DNA from: Deuterostichococcus epilithicus
Lineage: Eukaryota > Chlorophyta > Trebouxiophyceae > Prasiolales > Stichococcaceae
DNA: 64,000 nucleotides
Direction: 5' to 3'
NCBI GenBank assembly: GCA_033439295.1
Contig: JAVTLE010000011.1
Span: 1,488,082-1,552,081, forward strand
Shown: positions 6,278-60,172 of the stretch, piece after piece
Numbering within the stretch: the first letter of the stretch is position 1
How the letters are laid out: each line of letters opens with the position of its first letter
Program-made: the position numbers and the translations under genes
The notes under the pieces: model-generated
Seen by the model: only the letters and a program-made list of their open reading frames with translations
Databases searched by the model: none
Told to the model about the DNA's origin: nothing

Positions 6278-7351
6278 TCACCACTTCAGCCGCCGGTCCT
6301 CTCGCATTTCAGAGTAGACCTTGATGACCTGAATCATAACAGCGAAAACAGGTTCCATCAAGGAGTCAAGAAGCTAGTCATTCAGGCGCATGCACGACTT
6401 GGTGGCACATGCAAGCGGCCATGCTTCAGCTCACCTGGTCGCTGTTTTGCATCATGACCGGGCCGATGGTCACACTGATGTACTTCCCTGCGGTCGGATG
6501 GACCAGGAGTGATGCACAGGGCACACATGCTGCATTTGCCGGGCACACGCATGACACTACAACAGGTGTATGCAGCAAGTGACAATGTCTTGCAGGGTCT
6601 ACATGCCTTTGGCAGAGGGTCGCTGCTGCACCCTGCTCGGCTGCACTGTGCTGCCCACAGCGCTCTCCACTGCACCGACCATGCTCTGGACAAAGTCCTC
6701 TCCGCCCATGCCAATCGCCTTGAAGCTGCGCTCCGTTGGATACTGATTGACCTGGTGAAGAAATGCAAGAGTCTGCAAGCTCAAGTACTTTTTCAGAGGC
6801 ACCCTGGCACTGCATGACCTCGGCTGTGAGGCAACCCAAAGATATTGCATAACGTCTGTCAATGATGTAGCAGCCATGCGGCATCGCAGGCGTTCCCACC
6901 TTCTCATCGAGCTCTCGCCATCCCTCCAGAGAATTGTCACCACCCAGCACCATATTTGTGGACTTTGCCACCCGGCCCTCGAGGCTGCTGATGCCTGCGG
7001 CGCAAGCGGGCACCCGAATGAAGGCTCATATCATGCCTGCGACAAATGAGAATGCATGCATGTGCGCACACTACATTAGTCGAAAGATTGGTGGGGCAGT
7101 GCACGTATGATACGCGCAGCAACATTGGCTGCACCTGACAGCGTCTCCGTCAGCGCGTCGGCTGCGTCGTCTGCATTCGAGTGTGCCACATGGCGGCTGC
7201 CTGTCTGAGCATGCAACCTTCCAAACGCAGGCTGTCGAGCTCTGCGTGCAAGTCCAGGTGCACACGCGGAGACAACCCGGTTTGCCAGAACCTTCGGGGT
7301 GCATGTGCCAAATTGCATATGCTGAGCAAACGAGACTGCTGCACTCCGCAT
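6278..7351 (-). CDS. DUF493 (YbeD-like) protein, probably chloroplast
   Basis: This is a small ferredoxin-fold DUF493 protein of unknown biochemical role; plant members are plastid-targeted. Exons are 7114-7351, 6900-6994, 6607-6751, 6435-6487 and 6278-6328, giving about 193 residues. Diagnostic segments are YPTERSFKAIGMGGEDFVQS, then KGKYISVTIGPV, and the end VIKVYSEMREDRRLKW, matching plant members almost position for position. The first exon, ATG at 7351, is Ala/Arg/Ser-rich and looks like a transit peptide; it is the least certain part. Intron 3 (6488-6606) appears to start with GC (AAAG|GCATGT), because the nearest GT breaks the frame of the conserved GKYISV. It is divergent from NDUFB2, with 420 bp between the two starts. 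Confidence 0.85.
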
Positions 7352-7771
7352 CTCCTAAATTTGACGCAAGAGACTCTGCGCGCACGACAGGAGATGCAGC
7401 AAGCTAACTTGAGCGCCACAGAGCACTGCGCGGTACCGCAGATTAAGACTGGTGCAGATCACAATATACGCCACAAAGATGGCAGAGCGTTGGCCGGAAG
7501 CAACGGCAAGGGTGCTAGAGCGATCTGCAAGAGTTCATGCGCCTCAAACTGCAATCTATGTCAAGCGAAACAGCGCACGTGAGGCTCGGGCAAGGGCAAT
7601 GATTTACATTTTGTTGCAGATGAGTCGAATTGTAACTTGCACAGACACACAGTGCGTCTCGCGACCTGCAAGTCGACCGTGCCAACAAACAAAGGATCGG
7701 CTAGTGTCCGTCGCTCCAGCCTGTTCTTTGAACACCCTTGCGTCTCGCGGTTGTGCCTCGTACTCAGGGCC
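7352..7771. promoter_or_regulatory. Divergent intergenic region DUF493 / NDUFB2
   Basis: These 420 bp separate two divergent start codons and should hold both promoters. I could not pick out a core promoter motif. Confidence 0.4.
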
Positions 7772-9071: not shown

Positions 9072-12000
9072 TCAGCCGCGGGGGCCCATGCCCTTGCGGC
9101 CGGTCAGCGGGATGTCCGCATCGCCACCCTGATAGTCGTGCAGCACACCCTGCCGTGACGGCTGCCGCATCTTCCGCAGCGCCTTCGACTCGATCTGCCG
9201 GATGCGCTCACGCGTGACCTGCATACAATTGGGAATGGATCAGGATGGCGCACGACGTTTGCCCATGAGTCAGCACAAAGGCACAGACAGGAGGCGAGTC
9301 AACAGGTTGTCGAGCAAGGGACACAGCCAGGCCATCGTACATGTTCGAGCCATGGAATGCGGTGTGCGGCGCCACCAGGCCTCAGAAGCACGCTGCCGAC
9401 GGCAACCACTGCGGCATGATCACAGGTCCCATACCTTGTAGCGCAGGCCGATCTCCTCGAGCGTCTTCTCCTCGCCGTCGTCGAGACCGTAGCGCATGCG
9501 CAGCACGCCGCACTCGCGCGGCGACAGCGTGTGCAGCACGTTGTCGATGTCCGCCTGCAGCAGCCGCTTGACCGCCAGGTCGTCCACTGTCTCCGCCATT
9601 TCGTCCTGCAGCAGGGGTGCAATAAGGTTTGACAGGCCAGAGAGAGTGTGTTAGACCCGCCAGCCTCACTCAGGCTGATTCGGCACCACATCACGAATAA
9701 ACTGTCAAATGCCATGCTCGAGCGTGCGGCACGACCAGTCGTGCTGCGCGGCGGATGTGTCACGCCCTGATGCGTTGTATGCGGATGCGCCAGGGTTGTA
9801 GTACACCGCGACGTCAGCGCACCGGCTTCCGGCGTGGCAGCAGCCGTCTTGGCGCGCACTGCTTGCGAGTGTCACACAGCTGCTCAGAGACTGCCCAGCA
9901 CACAAGACCATGTACATACCTCGATGGTGTCCTCCAGGGTGTCCGCCTGGGTGTCGCCGGCCTTGCCCATGGGCGTGCTCATGCTGGTCGGCAGTCGTGC
10001 TGCCTTGTTCAGCAGCACCAGCCGCGCTGGCGTGATGCCCACCACCTGCCACGCGGACGAGAAGGTTCAGACGCTGAGGATTGGTCGAAGCCGAGGTCCA
10101 TGGTGACCCAAGCTTGCCTGACGCTACGTGGGAAGCATGCTGGCGTCACAATTCAAGGCTGGCGCATTGCGGGGGCCTCACAGGTATCCTGGTGCCTTGG
10201 CGCGGTGATGCAAATGCCTTGATGCAGTGTGCTGTTGCCCTACACGCATGGTGATGCGATGTGCCGCCGCCCTTACCTCTGCCACCTCTTCCGGCGTCGG
10301 CCGCCGCTTCAGCTCGTTCAGCAGCTCCATCTCAGTCTTGCGGATGCGTGAGATGACGTCGTGCAGGTGCACCGGCAGCCTGATGCGCAGGGAGGCGGCA
10401 TGGTGAGCACAACTGCGCCGGGTGTCCTGACATGCTGCGCAATGACGCGAGGTGCAATTCGCTGCCTCCAAAGACAACAACGACAGCATGAAGGTTACGA
10501 CCGCCACAGACACACACCGACGTCTATGGGCCGGGCATGCAGTGGCAGGGCCTACTGGCATGCAATCGTCCACAGGGAACCTACATGCACCACATGCGCC
10601 ATGCAGGCCACAGCCCACCGCCGCCTGATGGTGCAGCTCACAGCTGGCCACATGCAGGGAAGCGGGCGCGACGGCGCAAGCGGGTGCAGCGAGCGGGTCA
10701 CGGCCGCACCTGATGACGCGGGCCTGGTCCTGGATGGAGCGCGATACCGCCTGCCGGATCCACCAGTGCGCGTAGGTGGAAAATTTGAAGCCGCGCCCCG
10801 GGTCGAAGCGCTCGGCGCCCTTGGCCAGCCCGGTGACGCCCTCGGCTATGAGGTCCTCCAGCGGCAGGCCCCGGTGCATGTACTTCTTGGCGATGGAGAC
10901 CACCAGCCGCAGGTTGGAGTTGATCATGTGCTGCTTTGACTCCTCGCCGGCGGCGTAGCGCGCCTGGGGAGGGCACACGGGAGGCGACGGGTCGGCAGTC
11001 GCCGGAAGGTGAGGACAGCAGGTGCAAACACACACGGCAGCAATGCACCACGACGGCTCATTGCCCTGCACGTGCGATGGGCACAGACACTGCATCCCAC
11101 TTGGAAACGCTGGCACGGTCCCGCATAGTGGCTGGTTGCTGATCGAACAGCGTTCAGAAGCAGATGCTTGCGGCGAGTGCAGAGTCGCAGACAATATGCA
11201 CCTGGTACTCTGACGGCGAGATGCCGGCCTTGGCGGCCACCTCCAGCGGCGTCGCCTCGGCGCCGCTCGCCTCCTCCAGCTCGACGGCGATGCGCTGCAG
11301 GTCCGCCAGGTGCTGGATCTTAACCGCCAGCTCCTTCTCCTCATCCGCAGTCAGCAGCTTGTACTGCCCCGCACGCTGCGTTGAGGAGACGGTTGAAGGA
11401 TCACTGTCAAGGTCGCTGTGATTGGAGGTACTGCGTGAAAGGGGTTGACCACCAGCGCCTCCTTTCCTTCGCAGTCGGCCGCTCGTACTGCCCCGCGCGC
11501 TGCACTGGAAGAGTTGGAATAAGGGGTGCATGCTCTTAACCATGCAGGCTGGACAGGAAGCAGCAGTACATCCCTTGTTGTTGAGAACTTCCTGCAGGCA
11601 CTGATGTTGCAAGACCGTCGGTTTGAGGGGAGTTGGGTGCATCAGAGGGGTGCGGAAGCACAGAAAAACCCCGTGTCACAACTGCGCCTGGAAAGTCGGC
11701 GCCACACCTTCATGAACATGCGCATGACGTCGTTCGCGCTAGTGATGGACTGCGCGCCGGACGTGCGCACGGCGCTGGCAGCCATGCGGGTCTTGTCCAC
11801 GTGCTGCTTCCCCCACCGCGAGGCCTGCTGCCGCCGCGCGCCGGCGCGGCCACTGCCGGAGGTGCGGGTGCGCGCCGAACCCGCATCCGACCGCGCCGCC
11901 ACTTTGGAGCTGCCCACGGCTGCCTCCGCGACGCCGGGCAGCGACGGTGCCTGCGGCAGGCTGCTAAATGAGGCCTTTGCCGCTGTCGGCGACGCCGCAG

Positions 12001-19455: not shown

Positions 19456-22260
19456 TCACCGTGCAGGCGGCTGGAAAAGAGTCTGCCCAAGCGCCTGGTG
19501 CCGCTCGAATGCCGCCTGGTACGCCTCAGCCTTGCCAGGCACCGGCTGGACCACCTGCCGCAAGAGCAAAACCAGGCGCTAACAGAGACCGCTTCCTTTA
19601 GAATTGATGTCTGATGTTGGATGTTTGATGTCATGCTGCGTCCTGTGGCAGACATGCTGAGTCGAGGACGTCTCAGTACAACACACGAAGCACCTGCTCT
19701 GATACAGCCGGCGGCGCTGCAGCGATGTACTCTGCGACGGGGACGCCGCAGTGCACGGCTGCCGCCTGCAGCGCCACTCCCAGGGCGGCCGACTCCGGCT
19801 CCACTAGAAGCACCACCGGCAGCTGGAAGACATCTGCTATGATCTGAGTGAGAGCGATGAGATGCGTCACAAACTCTACAGCATCGTGCAATCCCGATCC
19901 CTATCAATCAATCCACACCCTCAATGTGATGCAGTCGGCATACTTCTGGCAACCTGCAACAAAGCTTTTCGTTCAGAGGCAGTGTCGCGATATGCCAGAT
20001 GCGCACCTGGCGCCACAGCAGGTTCTTCGACCCGCCGCCCACGAGGCGCAGCTGCGTGGCTGTCGCCCCGTGCTCCTTCAGCCGCACCATGCCTGTCGAG
20101 TTTGTTTAAGCAATTCAAATTGAACAAAAAAGGTCCGGCAGGCGAGAACCTTGGCAACGGACACGGCTTGTCTGCTGGTGAAGACTCAATCCCCTTGGAC
20201 AGGGTGAAGGAAAGTGGGCGGCAGCGTGCCTGCAAAGAGGGAAAAGGTGGCGCCCTCCAGCGCCGCGCGGTACAGCAGCCCCGGTCGCATGCCCCTGCGG
20301 CGGCGCGGCTTGTCATCAGCATGCGGAACCGCGCTTGCGGGCCAAGTGCCGATAGGCACACACTGCAGACAGGGACAATTGCTGCATTCCGAAGGTGGCC
20401 AGCTGGGAGCTGCAACTGACCCTGGGCCAAAGCCGAGCAGAGCGCCGCGCGCATGCGGCCAGTTTGGTGTGCGCTCCCCGGTGAGGTACGGGATGAAATT
20501 GACTCCCTTGCAGCCCGGCGGCTCCCGTGCCGCCAGTTCCGTCAACTCCTGGTGGCTCATCGAGAATGCTCGACACACCTGCAGCAGGAGCTCGAGCGGG
20601 CTGGTTCCGGAGCACCAGCCTTCGCAAGTGCTTGAGCGATCTCAATGGCAGTCAAGCAGTAGCGGGCAGGGACTGTACAGGGGTACAAGCTTGCACGGAC
20701 GACAGCCTCCAGCTGCGCAGGCGCGTCTGGGTAGGGGCGCTGATCACTGCAACGTGGCTTTTCACAGCTGCGACTGCACACCTCCTGCGCCGCGCCCGTG
20801 CAGTTTTGGAAGCAGCACAGCGGCAGCCACTTGCCAGTGGCATCGCAAAAAGGTGCCACGGTGCCACTGGGGTCCCAAACCGGGGTGTCCGACGCGCCAA
20901 ACAGCGTGCCGCTGGTGCCCAGGGACAAGACCCACGAGCCGGCGCTGACGGCGCCCGAACCCATCGCGCTGGCTGCGTTGTCCCCCGTGCCTGTGCCCAG
21001 CGCATGTCTTGAGTGCAGCTCGCGGTGCAGCCAAGCCCCACTGCGCTGCTCGCCTGGGCAGTGCGTGTCTCGATTCTCCTTTCATGACGGTCCCGCAAGC
21101 GCACCTGGGCCGACGACGACATCGGTGCTCAGGCCAAGGTGCGCTGCCGCTGCCTGGGTCAGCGTGCCCACCACCTGCGCAGCAGGAGAAAATCTGCTGA
21201 AGCATCGATTTCTGCAACATAACGATGCTTCGGCTGGCACATGACTGCGATATCGTTTGTCCTGCTCAAAGCGTCGCAGCAGCGCTGCACCTCGTCTGCG
21301 GCGATGAGCTCCGGGAAGCACTCGTGCAGCCGCTTATCGATGTGCTCCATGAGCTGCCTTGACAATGTGCGGCTGTGCACATCAAACACGCCTGCACGCA
21401 GCAGCGGCGTGAGGCAATCGTCATTGCAGCGCCTTAACGATGCATGTTCGCGGCCAGCCCCTTTGCCGTCTGTAAGGTACCTGTGCCGCTTGCGTCGCCG
21501 CACTCCATGACCAAGCGTCCGGTCAGGTAGAAGTTGATGTAGTCGTGGGGCTGCAACTGTACCGATGCTCCATCAGCTCCTGATAGAAGCACAGCAGCGG
21601 GCCGGCGGCCGAGATGCTGCTGGCAGCAGACAGGCGTCCAGGAGAAGGTGCGGGTGGCTCACCAGAAGGACATGGCGCAGCCGAGCAAAATTCTGTGGCT
21701 CGTGCTGCTTGAGCCACAGGATCTTGGATGCTGTGAACCCTGGCACGAGCTCGTAGCCGAACTTCAGAGAAAGCTCCCGGGCCTCCTCCGCGCTCTCCAC
21801 ATCGCACCACAGCTTGGCCGGTCTGATCACCTGGCGTCGAGGCACGTCCAAGACGTCAGCGCACCGATGGCGCAGGCAGCAGACCGGGCGGAGCTTGAAT
21901 GTGATCGAACGCGCCTCGTGCAGCATGGATGCATGGATTTAGGATATGTATTCGCTGTGCTCATGCGCTCGCCTGCAGCTGATCGTCCAGGGGCACAAGA
22001 CCGTGCTGCTGACCGCTGACCGCGATGCCCCGCACGCATGAGCTGTCGACGGACTGCAGGGCAATGCGGGTGGCCAATTTCACGCCCTCGATCCACTCTG
22101 CAGGATCCTGCTCCGCGCGGCCGGGACAATCTGCATGCACGGTCAGCGGCTGAAACAGGTGCTGGCCGCGCGCTATTATGGTGTTCGAATCTGCATCGAG
22201 CACGATTGCTTTCGCAGCGGAGGTGGATACGTCGAGGCCGATGTACAAGTTCTGGACCAT
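19456..22260 (-). CDS. Xylulokinase (FGGY carbohydrate kinase)
   Basis: The enzyme phosphorylates D-xylulose with ATP to feed the pentose phosphate pathway. Eleven exons (21973-22260, 21663-21830, 21481-21550, 21291-21391, 21105-21174, 20782-20990, 20421-20578, 20230-20294, 20007-20092, 19694-19843, 19456-19554) give about 487 residues, the usual family length. Motifs in order are YIGLDVSTSAAKAIVLD, AVSGQQHGLVPLD, VIRPAKLWCDVESA, HDYINFYLTGRL, VVVGPGTGDNAASA, SLGTSGTLF, NFIPYLTGERTPNWPHARG, and LVGGGSKNLLWRQ. The start at 22260 gives MVQNLYIGLD; the longer frame only adds eleven residues. Introns 1 (donor CAG|GCGAGC) and 8 (GCAG|GCACGC) must begin with GC to keep frame and motif spacing. Other FGGY sugars are possible, but the motif set is xylulokinase-like. 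Confidence 0.9.
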
Positions 22261-26646: not shown

Positions 26647-28742
26647 TTATTGCGTCTGTTCTGTTTGCAACGATGCAGTTGGCTGCGCAGCCGCTGCTGC
26701 AGCGGCGCTGGACACCTCATCATGCGCGGCAGTGCCCTGGGCTGGCTGCCCGGGCAGGGGCACCAGGCTCTTCTGCGCAGCGCTGCGGGCCGAAAGCCCA
26801 ACATCCACGCCGTCGCCGTCCCGCGCCGCCGCAGCGCTGGCCCCCGTGGCGGGCAGCCGTTTCCGCATCGGCACCGCCGCATCGATGGCAGCCTGCCAGC
26901 TGGCGCCGCCGTGCACCGCCAGCAGCGCCGACACCACGTCGTTGACGTTCAGGATGAGATTGCTGTCTCGGATCGGCGCGCCGGCCGCAGTCTGCAGCTG
27001 CTGCTCCGCGATGGGCAGCCGCCGCACCTCCAACTTGTGCTCCTCGGCAAACTGTTTCAGGCGTCAGGCGGACGGGTTTCAGCTCGGGAAAGTTCAAGCC
27101 GTGAGGCGTGTCTGATAGCAGGGCAGTCCGCCACAATGGGCTGGCTGTAGGCACCGACATGTGTGCATGTGCACTGCACCAGAGCCATCAACATTGCTGC
27201 AAGGATTTCAATCTGCATCGGATGAGGCTGTTCAGCTCGAGCTAAACCTGCACCCACCATGGCAGTGATGCCCTTTTTCCGTGTGCGGTCCACCAGGCCG
27301 CCGACGCAGTAGGTTTTTGAGGGGTCCAGCGCCTCAAGTGGCTGCCGCGCATCGGGCGTCAGCATCACCAGCGAGGCAGCGGGGTAGCACTCCAGGGTGG
27401 CCTCCTCCACACGGTTGACCGCCCAGCGCTCGCCGCCCATCCGCTCGCAAAATTGCCGCAGCTCGCCTGTTAGCGCCAGACCAAGAGCGTGGCTGGATCC
27501 AACAACTTACCACTCTTTGACAAGGCGCCCTGCTTGATGCAGGTGCCAACCCCGAATGACATCCTGGTAGGAGCGCTGTCTCAGCAGAGCTCATGCGTGA
27601 GGGGTGTGTTTGAGAAGATTCCTCGCAAGTCAACAGGCATCAGAGCACCCGCCTTTGAAGCCTGTGAATGTGAGGCGCACGGGCTGCGTCGCGCGCTTGT
27701 TGGCGCCGACACACTCCTGCAGCTGCTTTGCTAGGCTGCGCATCTGCAGCACAGCACGCCCGCGCAGCCTCAGCACCCATGTGGCAGACGAGTAGATGCT
27801 GCAAGCGCCGGCCCGCGGCAAGAACTGGCACGGGGTCGGGTCGTCCAGCCACGTGCAGCACGGCCAGGCAGAGGGTGACAGGCGGGACGGCCGCCGCCAC
27901 TGTCCCTTGGGGGCCAAAGTGCTCGCCTCGCGCTTGGAGCACTCGAGGATGAAGCTGCAGTCCACAACGATGCGGGTGCCCTCCCGCAGCGCCAGCTCCA
28001 GCCGCGCCTGCTGTGCCAGGTGGGCTTTGACACGCTCGTCCTTTGCGGCGGCCGCCTCCACCACCCGCCGCGCCGCCTCCGCCTCCGTCACCTCTTCCTC
28101 TAGATCCTGCGAGTCCGCTTTCCTGCGGTGCGGATATCGAGACGACTGAGCAAGATACAGCCTGTGCACTGCCTGTTTAAGCTGATGTCTTTGGATTGCC
28201 AGAACACCCACCGTTGCCAGGCGATGCATCTGCGCAGGCTTCGAGTCTGCGCCGTCTGCTGCGCCAGGCGATATTGGTGCAACATGCTGCAGCGCGTGCC
28301 CACCGTGGTCAGAGCCTGTGTCATACCGCTTCCTGGTTTTGTTGGCTTGCTGCCGTTGCGTGCGCTTCTGGTTGCGCATGCGGCGCCGCAGGTCCCAGAA
28401 GTCCTGAGGCAGGTCCTTGTTCTTGGCCTGCGCGTTGGCGCCCAAGCCGGCGCTTCAGCCCCGCGGTGCAGCGCCAGGTATCGTGGCGTAAGCAGGTGTC
28501 AGAGAAAACGGCCATACACATCCGCGACATGCCGTCAGCGATCTCACTGTGCTCCACCACGGGTTGGCTGCCTTCCAGGCCTCCAGCGCGAAGCGCGCAT
28601 CGGTCGCCGCAGCGTCCGACGGCTCATCCGCGCCGTCTGCCGGCGGCGGTGATGAGCTTGCGGCTGTATCTATCGCCTGGTCGGACGTCTGCCCATCTGG
28701 ATGCTCCCTGGGACGCGCCACATTGTCGCACACTTCGGCCAT
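26647..28742 (-). CDS. TRM10: tRNA (guanine-9-N1)-methyltransferase TRM10
   Basis: This SPOUT-family enzyme methylates N1 of purine 9 in tRNAs using S-adenosylmethionine. Exons 28558-28742, 28327-28452, 27927-28122, 27653-27743, 27258-27466 and 26647-27051 give about 403 residues. The N-terminus is acidic, then basic (FWDLRRRMRNQKRTQRQQ). The core has TRIVVDCSFILECSKREMRS, LAKQLQECVGANKRATQPVR, ALDPSKTYCVGGLVDRTRKK (cofactor region), KLEVRRLPI and NLILNVNDVVSALLAVHGG, all in TRM10 order. The Ala-rich tail after PMRKR is not conserved. Introns 3 (GAG|GCGAGC) and 4 (AAAG|GCGGGT) must use GC donors for phase and motif spacing. The ATG at 28742 is the first of the open exon that reaches the core. 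Confidence 0.9.
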
Positions 28743-40757: not shown

Positions 40758-43687
40758 ATGTCGCGCCTCGGCTGGGCCCTGACTGCCCTTTTGGGTGGTA
40801 TTGCTCTCCTTGCCGCACCCAATCCTCAGTCGGACGTGAACGTGCCGTCTGTAAAGGTCGACGTAGCGCACGCCGATGCAGCCAAGCAGCATCTGTCAGA
40901 ATTTTTGAGCTACAAGACGGTCTGCACGCTGGATGCGCCGCAGCATGTCTCGACCGAAAGTCATGAGACATTTACGCAGGCGCATGACGTAGGCCTGCAA
41001 GCATGCACGAGACAGTGCTTCGGCAGGATAACAGCAGCCGGAAACTCGCTGCAATAGACCTTTGGCCTGCTGCTGTCTTCTCTTCAAGCTGGCATGCGCA
41101 TGTTTGACTGGTCTGCGTGCAGCAACTGCGGCGGACCTATCCTGCTATCTGGGCCCAGCTGAAGACTACTACGGTAATTGTCGTTGGTATATCGGACCGA
41201 CAGTATGCTGCAGCCTGACGCAAGAGCCGTGTTGCTGTCTCGTTTTGCACCGCCCCAGTGGAGGGCAAGTGCCGCAGCCTGCGTCGCCTGCCATGACATA
41301 GCCCCATCCTTTTTTGCGACCATCAGGTGCTGACTCGCTTCATTGTGGCTGGCCGCTTCCGACCATCAGGTGTCCAACTACAGCCTGCTGATCCTGTGGG
41401 AGGGCAGTGACCCGGCCCTCAAGCCTGGGGCGCTGCTCAGCCACATCGACGTGGTGCCTGCGGATGAGGACCCAGCGACATCAATGTGGACGCACCCGCC
41501 CTTTGGCGGGGAAACGGAGGCTGGCTACATCTACGGTCGCGGCGCGCTGGACATGAAAAACAACGTGGTGGCCATCCTGGAGGCCGTCAACCAGCTGCTG
41601 CAGGAGGGGTGGGTGTTGTTGGGTATGATCCTATGCCTTGTTGGGTTTCTGTGCATCCTATGGCGTGTAGTGCCCAGCATCCTGGAGACAGCTTGCATCG
41701 TGCCTACGCACCTCATCGAAGTGGGGCTCCCCTCCAGTGGTTGATGTTTGCACAGTGAGTCGCCAGCACAAGGTTGAGACTAGCACGGAACTGTATTGCT
41801 GATCCCCGCAGGTTCCGACCCCTGCGCTCCTTGTATGTGGCATTTGGTCACGACGAGGAGGTGGGCGGCGTCCACGGCGCCGCAAAGATAGTGGAGCTTC
41901 TGAAATTGCAGAGCGTCCAACTGGAGTTCGTCTTGGACGAGGGCGGCTTCGTGATTGAGGATGGGATGCCGCCGCTGGCCCAGAAACCCATTGCGATAGT
42001 GGGCACGGCAGAGAAGGTTTGGCTGCGATGACTCGAAAAACTGTCGGCAGGGGTCTCTAGGCCGCTTTGCTGTAAGCTCTAGGCCAAACTTCGACATGGA
42101 CATATGCGCTGCCGTGCAGGATTACAGCATCGTGCAGGTGAAGGCCTCGACACTCGGCGGCCATTCCTCGATGCCCCCGGTCGATGGCAGTTCGGTGGGT
42201 GCCCCCTTCTTGCTGGATGCTATCGGAACACACCAATTGGGGCGTCTTTGGGACCATAAACTCTCGGCGCACCGCGCAAGATGACAGCAAAGCTAGACTT
42301 ACACGAGCAGATACCAAATCTGCACATGCCTTTCCATGCAGGTGGCAGCAATTCTGGCGCGCATCATGACCGCCATCGACAGAGCGCCTCCTCCCATCCA
42401 CTTGCAGGCATATCCCATTCACGCCCTCGAACGTGGCACGACTGCTGCTGGGATCCGAAGCTTGGACGATGCACCATCAGGCTGTGGTGTTTGAGTTCAG
42501 CTGTCTGTGACTGCAGCACCCTATGACGGACTTTCTGCGGGCATTGGCGGACGCTGCGCCAGTTCGCAGTCTGGCCTGGCTGCTGCGACATGCTGACATC
42601 AGGTGCTACCTTCTGGACATTGATACACGCAGCCTCCTCCACTGCCCCATGCAAGCTGGGCCGCGCACGTTTGGCTCGCGCCATGCTGACGAGATTTGCA
42701 GCGCACCCTGCTGGTAAAGAGACCAGCAGGCAAATCTGCTCGCTCCAGGGTCATCGGCGCCCTGGTTGGACGTCTGCTGGCCTTGCAGCCCGACACCGCT
42801 GCGCTGGTCCGCACAACCGCCGCCATGACGGTGCTCAGCGCCGGCACTGCACGCAACGTGCTTCCGCAGACCGGCAATCTGACCATCAATTTTAGGCACC
42901 TGCCAGGCGAGTCAAAAGGAAACCGCGACCTCATGCTTGTTTCCATGACCGCATACCCCATCAGCATTGTTGGCGCCGGGGCAGCCCAGGGCAACAGGCA
43001 GAATGGACATTGACGGCTGTTGTACATTCATGGACGGCCATCTGCATGCAGGGCAGTCTGCGGAGCAGATAATGGATTATGTGCGGCACAAGATTCCGGC
43101 AAAGGACCGAGGAAGGGTGTCTGTGGATTGTCTCGACGAACAGCCGAAGTCGCATGTCTCGCCTTCCACCGGATCGCACTTCCGGCTGCTGTCTCGCGTC
43201 ATCAAAGAGACGCTGGCAGGGCCCAAGGCGAGGACTGTCGTCCGAACCGCTGCAATGTGAACGAGTCAAGACCGCATGTCCTGACTTGCATGTCAGTCAG
43301 TGACGGTGCTGCTGACTTCAATCAGTACTCGTGTAATGCAGGGCATCGTCGTCGCGCCGTACCTTGTTGTGGGTGAGTCTCTACACACTGGCAATTTGGC
43401 CTCACTGAACAGATGTCAATTTGATCCACCTTGATGCAACACGGGCGGGATCTGGCGCAGCTTCCATGACACTGGACACTGTATACGCAGGCGGCACGGA
43501 CGCCAAGCACTACGCCTCGCTGTCCGATAACATCTTCAGGTTCATGCCGTTGGGCGTCAGCAGAAGCGCCAAGGACCTGACCCGCATCCACGGCACGGAC
43601 GAGCGCATTCACGGAGATGCGTTCCTTGGCCAGATCAGGTTCTTCATACACTTCATCAGGTCGTCGTGCAGCGGGTCGATATCGTAG
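40758..43687 (+). CDS. M20 carboxypeptidase (CPS1/Gly-Xaa type)
   Basis: This is a zinc metallopeptidase resembling yeast vacuolar carboxypeptidase S and animal PM20D1. Exons are 40758-40988, 41123-41173, 41370-41608, 41812-42016, 42120-42194, 42342-42407, 42517-42602, 42749-42906, 43052-43227, 43342-43372 and 43491-43687, about 504 residues. The N-terminus has a signal-anchor, MSRLGWALTALLGGIALLAA. Metal and catalytic motifs are LLSHIDVVPAD, YGRGALDMKNN, AFGHDEEVGG (glutamate pair), LGGHSSMPP, and GGTDAKHY. The end FHFIRSSCS-like segment (positions 43651-43680) lies where the family's last helix falls. Three introns need GC donors: at 42408 (CAG|GCATAT), 42907 (CCAG|GCGAGT) and 43228 (AAG|GCGAGG). 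Each is fixed by phase and by uninterrupted family motifs. Confidence 0.88.
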
Positions 43688-49209: not shown

Positions 49210-49900
49210 ATGCAACCAGCTTACCTTCAGCATTGGCGTGTCCCTGCGCAGACGAGGGCGGCGTCAGAGGACGAGGACGACGACTTCGAGAGCCAGCTAC
49301 TGGTGGGTACCGCCTGCATGCACATGCAATTTCGACAGCAGGCTGTACAACAAGCTATAGGTGCGGCGGGAGATCCTGAGGTGCGGAACATTGTACATCT
49401 CGCAGGAGAGGCGGCGCGCGCGCAAGCGACGGCCAGCGCCGGCAGTCAGCCCCGCGCAGCAGGCAGCAGAAAACGCAAAGTTCGAGCCCAGCTCGCAGGC
49501 AGAGGCGTACGTCCTGCAGTTCCTGGGCGTGTTCTTCGTCCTCATTATCCTCGAGGGCCTGGCACTGGCGGCCTCGGTGCGTTGCGGCCTGTGCACACGT
49601 CGAGCACTTTTTGCACTGACAGAGCGCCTCCGCATCCAACACGATTGGTGTGCGTGCCTGCACTGCTGAGCCTGATGTTCAGTCTTGCGGGTGCCATGGA
49701 TCATGTCACTGTTGCGGCGGCAGAGTGTTGTGGACCGTTCATGGGCGTGCGTGGCTGTCGACCTGCAGGGCTTCCTGCCCGAAGCAGCAGACGCCTTCAT
49801 CGTGGACAGGATTTACCCCACGTTCTCGCCGCAACTGGGCGTCCTGTTTGCATGTTCAACAGTGTACGGCCTGTGGAAGGTGGGCACACTGATCTCATGA
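49210..49900 (+). CDS. LPA2: LPA2-like photosystem II assembly protein
   Basis: LPA2 is an intrinsic thylakoid protein that helps assemble CP43 into photosystem II. Exons 49210-49302, 49406-49576 and 49769-49900 give about 131 residues. The mature start looks like RAASEDEDDDFESQLL, then a very basic stretch ERRRARKRRPAP. Two membrane segments follow: YVLQFLGVFFVLIILEGLAL leading into AASGFLPEAADAF, then VDRIYPTFSPQLGVLFACST and VYGLWK. The pair LAASGFLPE and YPxFxPxVxLF is the family signature. The start is tentative; the transit peptide may be upstream. The 3' end could also be spliced at AAG|GTGGGC (49879) to an exon at 49980, which ends within a few codons. Confidence 0.8.
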
Positions 49901-50344
49901 TGCTCCTGTTGGTGCTGCGCCCACTTGAAGTTAAGTTACTGCAAATTTAACTGAAAGGGATGCAAACCGTCTTGATTGCAGACAACGACAACACAGAAAT
50001 GAGGGGCTGCGGTCGGGCTGGATGTGCTAGATGGAGATCGGACGCCCACACCTTGCGAACCTCTAGAGCAGCCCTCAGGACACTTGTCAGGTCTTCAGCT
50101 TCTTATTTTTGATCGACGGAATGCACGTAGTTGAGGGAACATCTTCTCAAATGATCGAACAACACATCACCAGTTCAGGCGTCACTACAGGGCGACCGCA
50201 ATGTCTTCCACTACAGGGCGACCCGATTGTTTACGTAATCGGGTTTCGTCGTGCTGTTCGAGCGCCAACGCTGCAGGCCTGCAGCAGCCGGCAGACAAGC
50301 CAATTCGGTACTTGCTGGCGGTAGCATCGTGACGCCTCACGGCC
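49901..50344. other. Intergenic region
   Basis: This lies between LPA2 and the inositol phosphate kinase gene, both on the plus strand. A short direct repeat (ACTACAGGGCGACC) occurs twice near 50190-50225. Confidence 0.5.
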
Positions 50345-52877
50345 ATGGCAAAACCTGTCCGGAGCCTGATCTTCCATGCCCCGTCAACCCTGTTGAGTAC
50401 TGAAGGCAAGTGTCCTGACAGACTTTTGAGGTATCAAGTTGATTTGTGTGAACACATTTCTGCTGAAAGCGCTTCCCTACGAGCTACCTTCCAACATCTG
50501 CTTGGCAGGCGCACCCGAAGCATGTGCGCATGCATTGGTGCGGCGCCTGGCATGGGGCGGCGTGCGGACTAGCGTGCTACTGGAGGCGGAAAGCGCTGCG
50601 GAAGCGGCGCAGCAGCAGCTTGCGCTCGAGCTGCTGGATCTTCCCAGCGGTGTGGAATCCGCCGCTGCACAGCCAGGCACGGTGGCGCTGGCCCTGCGGT
50701 GCGCCTTGGAGACAGCACCTGTAATCTCCTAACGTGCTGTGCTCGTGACTGCATCGGGAATACGGTTCTAGAGCGATCTTTACTGCGATGAGTCTGTGAA
50801 ACTTGCAGGATGCTAGTGCAGCAAATGGGGCTGCCAGAAGACGCAACATGCGTCGTGGTCGGCGCGTCGCAGCTGCAGCGGCTCGCGCAGTGGTGCCCGT
50901 CCGGGTGCCAGCTGATCAGCCTGCGAGACGCTGGCCAGCCGCCGCCCTCGCTGCAGCCGCCGCCGGCCTCGAGCCCGGCCCAGAGCCTCGGCAGCATTCA
51001 GGACGTGCTGCGGCACATCGTGGCGTCACACACCGCCGACGGCACCAGCTTCGTCATCTCGTATGCCATGAAGGCGTCGCGGGGGCTGGCACTGGCAGAG
51101 CGCGGCTTCTTTCCACTCATGCCGACTGATGGCCTGTGCTTCCTGCCACTGGATCTGGATCGGGACCTTGAGGCACAGGGCCCCTTCCACGCCATCCTGC
51201 ACAAGGTAGCATGTTCACGGGTAGTCTCTGCGTGGTTCCGACCATGCTGGCAATGGAAATGCTTTGCGTAGGGCAGGGCCAAGCTTGTTTTACTCGAGAT
51301 TTGTGCCGTCGGATGGTGTGTGCGGAAATGGTGCGCAGCAGTGCTGAGTGCCAGTGTGCACAGTCTGACTCTGAGAAGTCCTGCTGGATGCAGGCGTCAG
51401 ACGAGCTCAGGCTGGGGACAGATGGCAGGCCACACCTTTCTGCTGCCTTCGAGAAAGTGGTCGCTTTCCAGGCACGACATCCCAACATAGCGTTCATCGA
51501 CCCGCTGGCGAGCATGCAAAAGGTGCTGGGCTCGTTCATCTTGTGGCTGCTGTGCAAATGTGCAACTGGCAGGCTGCTGAACCTCGTCGCTTGTGATTGT
51601 GTCCTGTCCCTCGTGTAACGTCTGCGATTGCGCCTCACGATCAGGTCCTGGACAGAGCCGCGCTTCTGGCAATGCTTGAGGGCTTGGCAGGGCTCGCAGG
51701 GCCAGGCACCCTCCGCCCGCCAGCGCACGTTATGGTGAGGATCTTGAGGCTTCGCCTCGCAAGCTGCTGCCAGTGTCGGAGCGACAACCACCCTGCTCTG
51801 TGCAATTGCCGGGGTGACGAGCTGCGCACCGTGTAAAAGGGCACCGAGCAATCTGCAGAAACCCTATCAAACCTTGCCAAGCTGCCTGCACAGGTGGAGC
51901 AGGCCTCGCAATGGGCAGACATCGAAGCACGCATGGTCGCGACCGGCATGGGCATGCCCGCCATCGTCAAGCCCTCCATCGCGTGCGGCGTCGCTGAAGC
52001 ACACGACATGACGCTCGTGCTGCGGCCGCCTGGCTTTGCCGACGTGCGCGGCCCGCTGCCGGCATGTGTGCAGGAGTTTGTGGACCATGGCGCGGCGCTC
52101 TACAAAGTGTACGTCATCGGCTCGGAGGTGCAGGGCGCGGGAGTGTTTGCATCGCGCCATGTTCATGGCCGTCGGGTGCCAACCAGACTTGAGCTGGTTA
52201 TGTCAGGCTGGCTGTGTCGACTTCACTCCACCCGGACCTCGCCCAGATTTCAGTAGGCATAGCTGCAACATCTGCTGCCAGGATCGTAGATCGACTCACA
52301 TCTGGTCTGGTCCGCGCGCAGGTCCATGTGGTGCAGAAGCCCTCGCTGCCGGACCTGCGACAGCTGGCCGAGCAGCTGGACGGCATTCCGGCGGCCTTGC
52401 CGTTCGACAGCCTGGCGGGGGCGCTGCCGCCGCCGCTGCAGGCCGTGGCGGCATCAGCGGCGGCAGTCGCCCCGCGAAAGCGCCTGAGCAGAGCCCTCGT
52501 GAACACCGCGGCGGCCTGGCTTCGCGAGCAGCTGGGGCTGCGGCTGTTTGGCTTCGACATCGTCGTGCAGCAGACCACCGGTAGGCGTCTGGTCCCTTTT
52601 GCACACTTCGCCTCATATCCCGCGCTCGATATGCACAAAGTGTGAGACATGGAGCACACATTGTGAGGCATCATGCTCGAAGTGTGAAACATGGTGCCTG
52701 ACTTAGCATCAAGCACCAATTACAAGTCGATTACACGGTGATTGATCTGCAGGCGATCATGTCGTGGTAGATGTAAACTACTTTCCATCGTTCAAAGAGG
52801 TGCCAGCGGGGCCAACGAAAGTGCGGATAGCCATACTCCAAGCGCTAGCAGAGGCTGCTGATGGGGATGCGGCCTGA
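50345..52877 (+). CDS. Inositol-tetrakisphosphate 1-kinase (ITPK)
   Basis: This ATP-grasp kinase phosphorylates inositol polyphosphates (Ins(1,3,4)P3 5/6-kinase activity). Exons are 50345-50405, 50470-50698, 50809-51205, 51394-51522, 51645-51734, 51894-52127, 52322-52580 and 52753-52877, about 507 residues. The core begins GYALxSK-like with VISYAMKASRGLALAE, then QGPFHAILHK, RHPNIAFIDPLASMQK, MPAIVKPSIACGVAEAHDM (ATP-binding lysine), VQEFVDHGAALYKVYVIG, and LFGFDIVVQQ with VVVDVNYFPSFKEVP, which supplies the metal-binding residues DVN. The order is that of the family. The first 160 residues or so are an extension with no recognised domain. The first intron would use a GC donor (GAAG|GCAAGT), a perfect match to the rule for such introns, but its acceptor is weak. 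Confidence 0.88.
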
Positions 52878-54010: not shown

Positions 54011-54519
54011 GGCATGCGGTCTGCCCAGATGTGACGACGCAAAGCACTCTTGCGATGAAATTAGATGCACAAACGACGTCTCAAGTTTTTTCTATCGTGC
54101 TTCTTCGCTCTTCATTGCATGTGCCTGGGGTTCAGAGTGCGCCGTCACGATCTGGCAACAAACCTGGCAACAACCCTGGTCGCATTCGTTCGCAAGCCCA
54201 TGAGGAATGCAGGCAAGTCGCTTGAAGCTCTAGCTGTATGTATGTCGGCGTTTGCGTGCGACTGCGCAATCGGTGCTGTTTCCGACATGAGTTCCGACGT
54301 TTTTGCTTGACATTTCCTTGCTCGCCTCGACTCAACGTTTTCGCCATTCATCTCCTTGCGAGTGCGACCTCGTCAACTGATGAACAGGTACATTGCAAGC
54401 TGAACTGCTTCCACGTCTGAATCGCCTGTTGGTGTTCTGCGTGGCGGGGCAAGAGACGCCACTCATGCGATTGTAGCCTCTCACAATCCGGCGGCGGAGC
54501 GAGGCCTCCGCGCAACAGC
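54011..54519. promoter_or_regulatory. Divergent region GNAT / DDX27
   Basis: About 510 AT-richer bases lie between divergent starts and should hold both promoters. No element was identified. Confidence 0.4.
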
Positions 54520-57500
54520 ATGAGCGCCGCGTTGAACCCCGGGTTCAGCTTCGACGTTGCCGCACCTGAGACACAGGCGCCCTGGGAGCTGTCAGGTGTG
54601 CTGCAGTCCCAGCTGATCGACGCTGCACAGCAGCGAGTGCAGGTGCACATCATCACGCAGCGATCAGACATGCATCATCCGCTTTGTTTGGTTTTGCAGG
54701 CCTCGTTTCTGATGCGAAGCGGGATCCAGCCAGTCAGCATGGCTCCTCGGCGGACCGCAAAGTCCAGCGGCGGCTGGCATCCAAAGCCGGAGCAAACAGC
54801 GGTGCAGCGACCACGGGCAGGGCAGCTGCGCCTCCCTCCAGACGCAGCAAACTCGCCGTAACTCCTGTACAGCCAGACGAGGCGTCTGACGATGATGCCG
54901 CCAGCAGCGGAGGTGAGCTGCTTGCTGCTACAAGCGTGCGATGGTAGAGTCTCTTGCGCGGCAATTCAGGAGCCCTGCTGCAGCAGGGCTAGATTTGACT
55001 GCTTTGAATGCATTCCTCGAATGGGTTGCTGTCCATGCAGGTGAATCTGACCTGAGTGATGACGTCGAACTGCCGGCAGAGAGGGAGGATGACAGTGGCG
55101 CCAGTACCTCCGATGATGAGGGAGGCAGCAGTGGGACGTCGACCGACATCAGTGAGTTGGCGTGGGCAACTGCATCCCTGAACTCGCTTCTCACAGAACT
55201 ACACATGAAACTTGTTAACTGCATGATTGCCCTCCCTGTGTCCAAAGTCTCAGCAGCTTCTCTTGCCTGACCGGCAGGCGCCGGCCAGGTGGGCAGGGAG
55301 GATGGCGATGGCATGTCCCCTGCGGAGGACGAAGCAGACGAGGACACAGCAGCACCTCAGGCAAGTGCTTCAGCGCTGTTTTGGCGGCTTGCTGCCGTTC
55401 CCTAGTCAGCAATCAATCATCTGAGGGTGAAATTCGCTCACTGACCTCGTCAGCTGCACTCATCCGTTCGATCGGCTCTTCTACAGGCGGGCACGAACGC
55501 TGGCGCTCCCAAGCGGAAGGGTCAGTTTTTCGAGCAGGCCCCACAGGACACGAAGTTCCAAGCGGCCAGCTTTGCGTCGCTGAACTTGTCGCGACCGCTC
55601 GTGAAGGCGTGCACGGAACTTGGCTACTCGCAGCCGACGCCCATCCAGGTGTGTGCTCGACTGCTTTGCATATATTGCTGTTGCTTCTTGCTTCTTGCCA
55701 CCCTGCGCAGCGGTTGTTGGCGTTGATCCACGTCAACCATATCAGCCAGTAATGCACGACTGTATTCGAGCAGTATCCACATGGGGTTTTTGCCGCAGGC
55801 TGCCTGCGTCCCGCTGGCGCTGCTGGGGCGTGACATCTGCGGCAGTGCACAGACAGGTGTGCAATCAACCCCGTGGCCAAATTCACGAGTCGTCATGCAA
55901 GCTGCACTGCAGATGGCTTCGACATCCCTCGTGATCATGCTTGAGAGAAGTTTCAGTCCTGATGCTCAGACAGACAGCGTGTACACTGCAGGGTCTGGCA
56001 AGACGGCGGCTTTTGCGTTGCCGCTTCTGGAGCGCCTTCTGTTCCGATCGCGACGGGTGCCCGCAATCTATGTCCTGGTGCTCACGCCCACGCGGGAGCT
56101 GGCCGTCCAGGCGAGCAGCGCTTCTCGCGCAGTCTGATTGCAGCCTCCAGCACCCAGTCTTTGGTACCAAGCTGGTATGAACAGCAGCGCGGGGGGGGCT
56201 GGAAGCTGCCCTGAACTGTCTCACGGTTTGCGGCGCGGCTCACCGGCTCACTCGCCTTCAGGAGGAGCAGCCAACTGCGCTGCAAGATCGGCGTCAGTTT
56301 TCCTTCTGGCACCAGGCTGACCAGCAAGATCTACTTGTATGCATCTGTGCAGGTGCACTCGATGATCACGAAGCTGGCTCAGTACACCGATGTGCGCACG
56401 GCGCTGGTTGTGGGCGGCCTGTCGCTGCAGGTGCAGGCCACGACGCTGCGCTCCAGCCCCGAGATCGTCGTCGCCACGCCGGTACGATGTTGCTACCCCA
56501 TCTTCTGCTGGTGCTACCTAATCTTCCCTCGGGTTTTCGTCAGCGCATTCAGTGCCTCTTTATCATCCAAGTCCACAACCAACAGTCAGTCTGCCCTTAA
56601 GAGTCAGTATTATGAAGCATCAAATCAGCACCAGCTTCTGGCACACCACCGTCCCAGGCGCCTCGCGCGTGGCGAGTCGATCTCTGGCGTGCCGCAGGCG
56701 CAGTGCGAGACTGATCCCAACGTGGATAAGCAGTTGGCGGCAGCCTTCCATATGTCGCTGATTTTTGCACCCTCGTTACATGTCAAGAGTTTCTTGCCCG
56801 CCCTCCAGAAAGGGCACACGCATACTGCCCCTGGCCGACTGCTTAGCCATCGCCGTCACCTGGCAAGAGCGGCCACGCTTGCGTGCCGATGAGCATGATG
56901 CCACAGGAGCTCGCGCTGCAGAGGCCGCTGGAGTGGGGGCGTTTGCACTCTGCGTCACTGGCGTGTGGGATTGGGCGCCGCTGCGCGGCCCGGCGCAGTG
57001 CTCCCCGCAGCGTCGCCTGCGCATCCGGAGGCGCAGGCCCGGGCTGGTCCGACGCGCGTGGTGTGTCTGCCAACATGTCCCTCGTGCCCCCTGTGGCGCA
57101 GGGCCGCCTGATAGACCACCTGCGCAACACGCAGCTGGTGGGGCTGGAGGACCTCCAAGCCCTGGTGCTGGACGAGGCCGACCGCCTCCTCTCCATGGGC
57201 TTCACCGACGAGGTGCGCCGCAACGTTCTGGTCCTAGTTGCAACGCTTCCAGCAGCATTGAGCGATGCGCCGGTAGTCCGTATAGCTCGTGAGCACAGCG
57301 TGCAGCGCCGATTGCGGCACCTGGTCTTCTGGCTTGGCTCATGTATGGACGGAGCGGCGCGAGCGACATTGCTGCGGGCTCCTGGACGTTACGCCCCTAG
57401 GCAGCCTGCGCAGTCGCGGCCTGCCACGCTCAAATGTATGCCCTGCCAGGGTATCGCCAGGAGGGCACGCGCCTGACGCCTGTGCCCCACCCACGCACCC

Positions 57501-60172
57501 TGCGCAGGTGCAGCAGATCGTGTCGATGGCGCCGCGCGAGCGGCAGACGATGCTGTTCTCCGCCACCATGACGGAGGACGTGGAGCAGCTGGTCAGCATG
57601 TCGCTGCGGCGCCCGGTGCGGCTCGCAGCCGACGTGCGCGACACCGCGCCCTCGCAGCTAGCGCAGGAGATCGTGCGCCTCAAGGTGGGTGGTGGCCCTG
57701 CCGCCTCGCCTCCCGCTGCCTGCACACCGGCTGGCAGTACACGTGCTCTCCACTACGTGTGCCAGTCAGGCTGGCTGCTTGATGACATCGAGGCTGCTGT
57801 CGGTCGTGGTTGAAGCGGCCAGGAAAGCACCCATTGGGTTTTGAGTACGCTGCCCCTTCCAGTGGGTCCTGCAACAGGCAGGAGCATGCAGGCAGCACAC
57901 AACAGAACCCCCTGGACACACTCACCAGCCGCAGGCCTGCACTCCCTTGCGCACCTGAAGCTGACTCGCTCCCTGGCGACTGCCGCCGCAGGGCGGCGCA
58001 GCGGCGGACAAGGAGGCGACGCTGCTGGCGCTGGCGAGCGCCTCCTACGGCAACGGCCGCACCATCGTGTTCTTCGCCACCAAGGTGGCGGCGCACCGCG
58101 CCAAGCTGCTGTTCGGGCTGGCACGCCTTCCGGCCGCGGCGGAGCTGCACGGCAACATGAGCCAGACAGGGCGGCTCGAGGCGCTGGACTCCTTCCGCAA
58201 GGTGCCCTGCCTGCTCTGCTGCATATGGTCTGCTGCGCTGCTGTCGTAAAGATAGGCTGCAGCTGCCACCAGAAACACAGCACCCATGCTTGCTGCTGTG
58301 AGGCGGTCGTATGGTTCCGTTCCATGAGGGGGTTCCATACCGCTGGCACGGGTCACTGCCGCTTGCTCTCATACTCTCCGGGAGAAAGCAGGACGCTCAC
58401 CTAAATCATTCCTGCCACGGCGCAGGGGGAGGTGGCATTCCTGCTGGCGACAGACGTGGCGGCTCGCGGACTGGACATCTTGGGCGTGCAGAACGTGATC
58501 AACTACGACTCGCCGCGCACGCTGCAGGACTACCTGCACCGCATCGGCCGCACCGCCCGCGCCGGCGCCGCCGGCCGGGCACTGACCTTCGTGGAAGACA
58601 AGGATCGCGCGCTGCTCAAGCAGGTGCGATGTACTGCTTCTGCGCACGCGCGGGCTCAGTCGCCGATGCAGGCTGTGCCATTGCCTGTAAACTGCCGCAC
58701 GCAGGCAGATGCAGAACACGCAAGTCTGGTCTCGGCATCCGTCTGTGCACATGACGCAGGCCTGCACCTGGCAGAAGGCTGCCCTGAGCACCAGCCACGC
58801 ATGCCTGGCTGAACAGTGCTGGGTTGCGTATCTTGACTGCATCCACGCAGGTGGTCAAGCGCGCGGGGGCGGTGCTGCGGGTGCGGGTGCCGGTCGCCAA
58901 GTCGGTGCGGGAGTGGGCGGCGCGCGTGGAGGGCCTGGAGCCCGATGTGGCCGCCATCCAGGCGCAGGAACGGGACGAGATGGAGCTGCGCCGCGCCGAG
59001 ATGCAGGCCAACAAGGTGGGGTCTTTGTGTGCACCGAGCTCCTCGGGATCGCTTGCTTTAAGTTTCGAACCGAACCACGACCGTTCGCAGAGGCGCGTGC
59101 GCCGCATGGGCGCTCTGAGCCGTGTCACCCAGGAGCAAGCTGGTTCTGCCGAATATGGAGTGCATCACACTGCGCAGCGCCACCCTTCTGACGGCAACAC
59201 GGGAGTTTGCCATGACACCGAAGGTCCATCAAGATATTTGCTCTGCTTGCGAAATGGCTGCGAGAAGTGTCTGTGACACTCGCGTGCAATGTGCGCGCAG
59301 GCACAGAACATGATCGACCACGAGGACGACATCATGGCGCGGCCGGCGCGCTCGTGGTTCCAGACGCCGAAGCAGAAGGCGGCGTCCGCGACCGCCGCCA
59401 AGTCCGCCGCCGATGGCGCCGCCGCCGGGGCGCAGCCGAAGAAGGCCGACAGACATGCGGCGGCAAAGAAGGACCGCGGTGGCGGCGACAAGGGCGGCAA
59501 GGAGAAGGGCGGCAAGAAGGGCCGGGATCGCAAGGAAGACGAAAAAAAGGAGCCGGAGGACACGGCGGAGGAGCGGCGGGCGGTGGCGCGCGGCATCCGG
59601 GCGGCCAAGGAACGGGAGGCGGCCATCCGCAGCCAGGGCGTGTCGGGCGGCAAGGCCGGCAAGCTTGCCGTGTCGGCGCTGGCGCCAGGGGAGACGCCCA
59701 AGAAGAAGAAGAAGGACTCCAAAAAGCGGAGCAGGCGCGGCTTTTGTTGTCTCATCTACTCTTGTCTCGCCAAGCAGAAGGCGAAGGACTCGAGATAGCG
59801 CCGCAGGTGCGGCTGTGTCGTCCTGCAGGCCCTGTGCCGAGACAGCTACGGCTCAAAGTGAATTGATGGCATAATTGAAGGTTAAAAGCGAATCAGCTGG
59901 CCTGGCATCTGTCTTGCAGTGCATCTGACGTGGCGGTGAGAGCAGGGCAGTACTCACGACGCTGTGGGCTGTCTGTGCACAGGGAGGAAGGCGAGGCTCC
60001 GGATGCAGATGCGATCGCCCTCAAGAGGCCTTCCAACGTGTACAGCGGCGGCGCGAAGTCGCAGCGCATTGAGGCGCCCACAGCGTCAAAGCGGCAGAAG
60101 AACCAGATCAAGCGCGGCGGCGCTGGCAAGAACTCCTTCAAGAGCAAGGCCAAGCACAAGCGCAGGAAATGA
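54520..60172 (+). CDS. DDX27: DEAD-box RNA helicase DDX27/Drs1
   Basis: This nucleolar ATP-dependent helicase acts in 60S ribosome subunit assembly. Fifteen exons (54520-54595, 54700-54912, 55041-55151, 55278-55360, 55487-55648, 55799-55856, 55992-56110, 56353-56481, 57102-57212, 57508-57684, 57992-58201, 58426-58623, 58851-59015, 59301-59734, 59983-60172) give about 811 residues. An acidic N-terminus precedes the Q motif ([11 protein letters not shown]), motif I ([11 protein letters not shown]), Ia (PTRELAVQ), II ([10 protein letters not shown]), III (SAT), IV (TIVFFATK), V ([10 protein letters not shown]) and VI ([10 protein letters not shown]). After the core come [14 protein letters not shown] and a long Lys-rich tail ending [10 protein letters not shown], as in Drs1. 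Introns at 55361 (CAG|GCAAGT), 56111 (CAG|GCGAGC) and 59735 (GCAG|GCGCGG) use GC donors. Confidence 0.93.

Follow-up and report, generated by a model that had tools for sequence, protein, structure and literature searches.

GC-AG introns at an estimated 8% of all introns in the green alga Deuterostichococcus epilithicus, with a donor context suggestive of compensation at a canonical U1

GC-AG introns in the window and in conserved genes

The window analysed here, a 64,000-nt stretch of the genome of the trebouxiophycean green alga Deuterostichococcus epilithicus (contig JAVTLE010000011.1; the 46.8-Mb eukaryotic genome comprises 21 contigs), carries amongst others genes for a DUF493 protein, a xylulokinase, TRM10, an M20 peptidase, ITPK and DDX27, in which an earlier note had placed 12 introns that open with GC instead of GT. 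All 12 read xAG·GC...AG· on one strand (the dot marks the cut). Seven of them are backed by tool-based homology, two by the gene model together with putative M20 motifs and one by the model; another is plausible and the last, in the ITPK gene, is unsupported. The 11 retained introns are listed below; donor posteriors are those of our gene-finder (see the following section), run with a generous GC prior of ~12%.

6488..6606, minus strand: GC-AG intron of the DUF493 gene, aag·GCATGT; posterior 0.996; Pfam DUF493 75.9 bits, against 45.5 bits for the best GT-only peptide
20093..20229, minus strand: GC-AG intron of the xylulokinase gene, cag·GCACGC; posterior 0.91; gap-free to 5vm1 at residue 376; the GT-only model splits the gene
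21831..21972, minus strand: GC-AG intron of the xylulokinase gene, cag·GCGAGC; posterior 0.99; junction gap-free to 5vm1; FGGY_N 172.2 against 134.9 bits
27467..27652, minus strand: GC-AG intron of TRM10, aag·GCGGGT; posterior 0.30; junction gap-free to 4fmw
27744..27926, minus strand: GC-AG intron of TRM10, gag·GCGAGC; 183 nt, stop-free and in frame; posterior 0.11; junction gap-free to human TRM10 (4fmw)
42408..42516, plus strand: GC-AG intron of the M20 peptidase gene, cag·GCATAT; posterior 0.79; included in the pooled M20_dimer gain; putative M20 motif
42907..43051, plus strand: GC-AG intron of the M20 peptidase gene, cag·GCGAGT; posterior 0.99; junction gap-free to 7t1q; included in the pooled M20_dimer gain
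43228..43341, plus strand: GC-AG intron of the M20 peptidase gene, aag·GCGAGG; posterior 0.99; joins the PYLVVGGTDAKHY motif
55361..55486, plus strand: probable GC-AG intron in the N-terminal region of DDX27, cag·GCAAGT; posterior 0.96; a non-conserved stretch, with support from the model
56111..56352, plus strand: GC-AG intron at helicase motif Ia of DDX27, cag·GCGAGC; posterior 0.997; DEAD 91.7 against 79.8 bits
59735..59982, plus strand: plausible GC-AG intron in the lysine-rich, low-complexity C-terminal tail of DDX27, cag·GCGCGG; frame restored by hand reading; posterior 0.14

Both TRM10 introns had been read correctly in the earlier note, though the gene-finder missed them: the GC-spliced peptide scores 52.3 Pfam bits against 46.7, and a rival GT solution for the intron at 27467-27652 (27493-27648) adds ten residues. 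The three M20 introns were scored together (M20_dimer 34.9 against 24.2 bits), and the sequences joined at 42408-42516 and 43228-43341 (PYLVVGGTDAKHY at the latter) are what we take to be M20 motifs. For 59735-59982 in DDX27, the alternative chosen by the gene-finder likewise has a GC donor.

Homology was then considered beyond the window as well; L-numbered loci (L001-L048 etc.) lie elsewhere than the window. Among 46 genes with a called GC intron, 23 were picked for looking conserved; one was not extractable and three were not submitted, and with TRM10 added, this left 20 comparisons of a GC-spliced with a GT-only peptide (for TRM10, with the peptide of the gene-finder). The GC-spliced peptide was ahead by at least 4.5 Pfam bits in 17 of the 20, a figure that verifies sites and gives no estimate of their rate, as the genes were selected for carrying a GC call. 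The gains were +30.4 bits for DUF493, +37.3 for xylulokinase (FGGY_N), +10.7 for the M20 peptidase (M20_dimer), +5.6 for TRM10, +11.9 for DDX27 (DEAD), +9.8 for a Sec23-trunk gene (Sec23_trunk), +19.5 for a Cupin_8 gene, +9.8 for a p450 gene, +24.0 for a Pkinase gene, +14.9 for a Cpn60_TCP1 gene and +5.7, +14.3, +12.5 and +35.2 for four DEAD loci, while a Rhomboid gene scored 37.7 bits with the GC junction and had no match without it. Smaller gains were seen for an HATPase_c gene (+4.5 bits, with HisKA in the same query at -1.4) and a Galactosyl_T gene (+4.9 bits; weak, a short insertion staying in both models). PALP (+0.4) and EamA (-0.9) were neutral. As a control, five of ten decoy introns drawn randomly from 132 in conserved genes gave -17.2, -0.5 and -12.2 bits, no domain and +0.9 bits, the last of these sitting on the p450 GC intron.

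Solved homologues of CCT5 and DHH1/DDX6 aligned gap-free over 259 and 342 residues, respectively, the GC junction included; both proteins were spliced by hand, with one model artefact merged in each. In these two and in the 17 comparisons, a GC donor and an AG acceptor thus leave the protein family intact after splicing, as in U2-type GC-AG introns. CCT5, DHH1/DDX6 and the Sec23-trunk gene are housekeeping genes.

The candidate intron in ITPK (50406..50469, plus strand) is not supported: its posterior is 0.006, and its position precedes the conserved ITPK domain, in a part of the model into which a second gene has been fused. This appears to be a separate small gene at 48911-50216 with hydrophobic segments (AEAYVLQFLGVFFVLIILEGLALAASGFLPEAADAFIVDRIYP...), the fusion of which may explain the unsupported intron. 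Furthermore, a phase-0 GC-AG intron occurs at the same place in motif Ia of two DEAD-box genes, at 56111-56352 in the window and at L008:1304-1503 (PTRELCEQ·VREE), and perhaps represents an old shared intron with a GC donor.

Frequency of GC donors

The gene-finder is a strand-symmetric hidden Markov model with explicit handling of donors, acceptors and split codons, self-trained from long open reading frames. Its training set was the window together with twenty 10-kb stretches spaced out over contig C12, 264 kb in all (62.0% GC). Restricted to GT, it settled at 534-548 introns of a median length of ~170, with the consensus CAG·GTG[C/A]G for the donor and GCAG·G for the acceptor. When one extra donor dinucleotide was allowed at a time, with an identical matrix and a 3% prior, GC raised the score by 180.8 (35 uses) and none of the 14 decoy dinucleotides by more than 58.7 (8-31 uses each). 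AG preceded the cut in 32 of 35 GC introns against 73 of 235 decoy introns. When single sites were masked, the loss reached 4 nats or more for 20 GC introns as opposed to 0-3 per decoy. In a second test, which had a GC-type matrix and a prior of 6%, the training stretches yielded 58 uses of GC for a gain of 235.0 (decoys: 8-33 uses, gain up to 33.9), and the 14 held-out loci 11 uses for a gain of 34.7 (decoys: 0-7 uses, gain up to 8.3). None of the decoys rose in the manner of GC in either test, and GA, GG and AT were not clearly raised in the second.

Under the latter settings, GC-AG calls make up 58 of 561 introns, i.e., 10.3% raw (8.1-13.1% by bootstrap over the 21 stretches), with 14 of 144 introns in the window and 44 of 417 in contig C12. 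Decoy calls average 17.9 in the training stretches, but 12.0 of them overlap called GC introns, which span only 2% of the strand-bases and yet absorb two-thirds of the decoy calls; the non-overlapping calls (mean 5.9, worst 14) are the fairer estimate of false positives. Subtraction of 5.9, 14 or 17.9 false calls leaves 9.3%, 7.8% or 7.1%, that is, ~40-52 GC introns of 561; the stricter first model, with its identical matrix and 3% prior, has 35 GC against 511 GT introns (35/546, 6.4%). The held-out loci gave 11 of 96 raw, a few GT introns being counted twice where L043 overlaps L047 and L046 overlaps L048.

From these figures, we estimate a corrected GC-AG share of ~8%, with a plausible range of 6-11%. 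The mean for plants is given as 1.2% (PMC6310983), and expressed sequence tags of Chlamydomonas reinhardtii, likewise a green alga with U2-type GC-AG introns, yielded 532 of 25,585, or 2.1% (PMC2846911). The rate here would thus be roughly 7 times the plant mean and 4 times that of Chlamydomonas. The claim that GC-AG introns are some ten times commoner than expected holds as to the elevation, which extends beyond the window to contig C12, and falls to about sevenfold after correction. Of its 12 introns, eight are among our 14 window calls; the other six calls are doubtful. An in-silico T-to-C sensitivity test recovered 300 of 545 GT introns as GC at threshold 0 and 95 at threshold 4; the corrected rates derived from it were inconsistent and did not enter this estimate.

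A separate observation concerns near-exact duplicates of segments at splice sites, comprising either the end of an exon with its donor or an acceptor with the start of the next exon, found 80-230 bases away from the original. Ten of 1284 boundary segments have such a match over at least 30 of 36 bases, against none in three shifted controls; they occur in the window at 15021-15076 and 11376-11707 and in L001, L003, L023, L044, L045 and L048. The introns at 15021-15076 and L023 698-792 lie in duplicated segments and are doubtful GC calls.

Donor context and the U1 complement

For the donor context, we compared 23 homology-read GC donors (three of them by motif reading: 42408, 43228 and L004 799) with 503 GT introns; the p values are unadjusted. 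AG precedes the cut in 23/23 GC and 280/503 GT donors (p = 3e-6), a count partly built in, since the matrix that initially put forward most of these sites favours AG. Enriched as well are A at +3 (8/23 against 37/503, p = 3e-4), A at +4 (13/23 against 156/503, p = 0.02) and G at +5 (22/23 against 369/503, p = 0.014); AG before the cut and a frequent G at +5 had both been remarked upon in the earlier note. In the first model, A stands at +3 in 13 of 35 GC introns despite a fixed matrix that disfavours it. With a T placed at +2, the 23 GC sites would pair with the 5' end of U1 at a mean of -9.5 kcal/mol, compared with -6.8 for GT sites (p = 2e-6); as they stand, with C at +2, their mean is -5.6 kcal/mol. 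U1 complementarity outside +2 hence exceeds that of GT introns. The GT donors of the 264 kb are themselves unusual when set against the textbook GTAAGT, having G at +3 in 84% and C over A at +4.

We listed 11 U1-like loci, eight of them above the Rfam cut-off. Seven of these eight begin with the canonical ATACTTACCTG and one (L015) with ATGCTTACCTG. A pattern search that tolerated as many as three mismatches and either A or G opposite +2 returned eight sites, all with A and thus no variant facing +2; the three weaker loci are divergent or truncated, and the two of them that retain a 5' end also have A there. No copy complementary to a GC donor, as a variant U1 of the kind considered for Eurytemora would be, was found. 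Both U6 matches contain the ACAGAGA box, and the genome has one gene for U1C, two LUC7 loci and one METTL16-family gene. METTL16 is a U6 methyltransferase that affects the preference for A at +4, and such a gene is present here even though the GT donors favour C over A at that position.

Two of the U1-like loci deserve description. L015 (C13:1078200-1078361) starts with ATGCTTACCTG and includes several N bases; its Sm-like site is intact, and the CCCATAACTG element upstream is conserved. The G at position 3 of this copy would match a C at +6, the base found there most often in GT donors (39%). L037 (C10:224680-224930) is divergent, reads ATACGTACCTG and has a degraded-looking Sm region; its G at position 5 would be the partner of a C at +4, which GT donors have more often than any other base at that position (40%), and the locus may be a U1 pseudogene.

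Probable recognition and origin of the GC donors

The reading we favour, at a probability of about 0.8, is that some 8% of the introns carry a GC donor and otherwise belong to the ordinary major-spliceosome class, the mismatch of the normal U1 at +2 being offset by better flanks. A U1 with the 5' end AUACUUACCUG would probably recognise these donors with a single C-A mismatch at +2, for which A at both +3 and +4, G at +5 and the AG preceding the cut would make up. The GC sites would most likely have arisen by T-to-C change at +2, in a genome with ~62% GC in our sample, in donors strong enough to tolerate it. The share of GC-AG introns, their stricter context and the canonical U1 are computational results, whereas the role of that U1 in recognition and the mutational origin are inferred. 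Because the flanks of GC donors match U1 better than those of GT donors, the rule appears to be one of compensation and not of relaxation, with C at +2 tolerable in an otherwise strong site. The relaxed U1 or 5' splice-site rule suggested in the earlier note is, therefore, rejected, given the canonical U1 in seven of eight good copies, the U6 box, the lack of a like rise in any other dinucleotide and the better match of GC donors to U1 elsewhere in the site.

Several results weigh against this reading or limit it. The gene-finder is self-trained, and its sample amounts to 0.6% of the genome, mostly from one chromosome, so that the rate is a sequence-only estimate. In the UDPGP gene of L033, the GC model scores 9.5 bits lower, i.e., the GC call is wrong (one of the 20 comparisons), and three of the 11 held-out GC calls (L005 1976-2023, L042 2026-2113 and L045 1153-1240) read as artefacts. 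Eight remain, two of which (L002 254-450 and L004 799-1033) were judged by motif reading; for L002 254-450, a neighbouring GC may be the actual donor. Free re-estimation of the donor matrices by expectation-maximisation inflated some decoys (CT 148 and CA 131 expected introns) and was dropped for counts, and the GC matrix learned in this way was still used in later gene-finder runs. C at -3, G at -1 and T at +6 do not differ significantly between the 23 GC and the 503 GT donors. In a donor-agnostic test, in which every possible donor was scored against paralogues in the DEAD and CCT families, GC came top at only four of 11 GC-modelled junctions, and GT over GC was favoured at L004 and at 56111-56352 of the window (GT 96 against GC 86). 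In the contest between GT and GC alone, the model was upheld at 70 of 92 GT junctions (18 against, four ties) and at eight of 11 GC junctions (two against, one tie). The test deserves little weight, because its resolution is low: GT came top at only 46 of 92 GT-modelled junctions. Base composition offers no full explanation either. The Chlamydomonas genome is similarly GC-rich; since its GC-AG share is only 2.1% and since GC and GT introns here show no difference in local GC content, composition alone does not account for the rate.

That GC donors were invented by the modelling to keep reading frames open has a precedent in Heterorhabditis, where a GC-AG share of 8.9% in the first annotation is reported to have fallen to 0.8% on re-annotation (PMC5906903), and some GC calls here are indeed false (UDPGP in L033; the duplicated segments at 15021-15076 and L023). 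We nonetheless regard such an artefact as the least probable of the explanations weighed: the decoys do not reproduce the GC effect, Pfam and the solved homologues back the GC junctions, and A at +3 in 13 of the 35 first-model GC introns goes against the fixed matrix. It is also improbable, if not to the same degree, that GC donors mark alternatively spliced genes. GC donors are described as frequent in alternatively spliced Caenorhabditis elegans isoforms (PMC5906903), and retention of the stop-free TRM10 intron at 27744-27926 (183 nt) would stay in frame. Against this stand the GC introns at conserved motifs of housekeeping genes and the fate of the original argument, a clustering of GC introns by gene, which proved not to be significant (6 genes had at least three GC introns, with 3.8 expected, p = 0.11; 14 had at least two, with 12.9 expected, p = 0.38; for pairs within one gene, p = 0.28).

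A changed splicing factor (U1C, LUC7, a modification of U1 or U6, or a variant U1) might instead have widened the choice of 5' splice sites in this lineage. The rate above that of Chlamydomonas would fit, the U1C, LUC7 and METTL16-family genes are there, and a single U1 copy, with its upstream element conserved and an Sm-like site, carries G at position 3, facing +6. Against it, no U1 copy with G facing +2 was found, the rise is clear in GC alone and not in GA, GG or AT, and GC sites are stricter, not looser, all of which makes this explanation improbable. Somewhat less improbable, though still unlikely, is a donor code of two parts with +2 and +3 varying together, GT going with G at +3 (GTG[C/A]G) and GC with A at +3 (GCA[C/A]G). 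On that view, selection would maintain GC donors as a stable class, to be read by a modified U1 small nuclear ribonucleoprotein or LUC7 set, and the U1 variant carrying G at position 3 would suit the common donors with C at +6. Among AG-flanked called donors, GC accounts for 28 of the 54 with A at +3 against 20 of the 241 with G at +3, a contrast partly built in, as the calling matrix had learned A at +3.

High GC-AG shares have published parallels. Iwata and Gotoh (2011) give GC-AG shares of 7.7% for Chlorella sp., 22.2% for Micromonas pusilla, 39.6% for Aureococcus anophagefferens and 2.7% for Micromonas RCC299, and report the canonical U1 5' end AUACUUACCUG in Aureococcus and two Micromonas; they link the extremes to genomic G+C, find the correlation weak elsewhere and call the cause an enigma (PMC3033335). 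The rate here would fall in the range of Chlorella, comparable or higher rates having already been published for a few GC-rich algae. A GC-AG share well above 1-2% is common to ours and the first three of these algae, and a canonical U1 to ours, Aureococcus and Micromonas, but their rates are transcript-based and genome-wide, whereas ours is deduced from the sequence of 0.6% of the genome, supplemented by a decoy test, a check against homologues and statistics on donor compensation; G+C is 62.0% in our 264-kb sample and at least 65.9% genomically in the three published extremes (PMC3033335). In Globodera, 3.46-3.56% of the splice sites are reported as non-canonical, with RNA-supported GC/AG introns in genomes of 36.7-38.1% GC (PMC4901422); GC/AG introns are elevated there too, under the consensus CAGG[T/C]AAGT, whereas here the +3 and +4 preferences differ between GC and GT. 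Eurytemora affinis and Oikopleura have GA-AG introns, possibly via a U1 variant (PMC7072748), a genome-wide donor shift likewise, but one to GA, while our alga shows no clear excess of GA or GG, and the searches for U1 brought up no variant facing +2.

In the window, GT-only models split the xylulokinase and M20 genes and shorten DUF493; gene predictors confined to GT would misassemble or break about one in twelve introns in this organism. Deuterostichococcus adds one more lineage to the puzzle posed in 2011, that of many GC-AG introns in some GC-rich algae despite a canonical U1, and a simple tolerance model can be tested through the pattern of compensation elsewhere in the donor.

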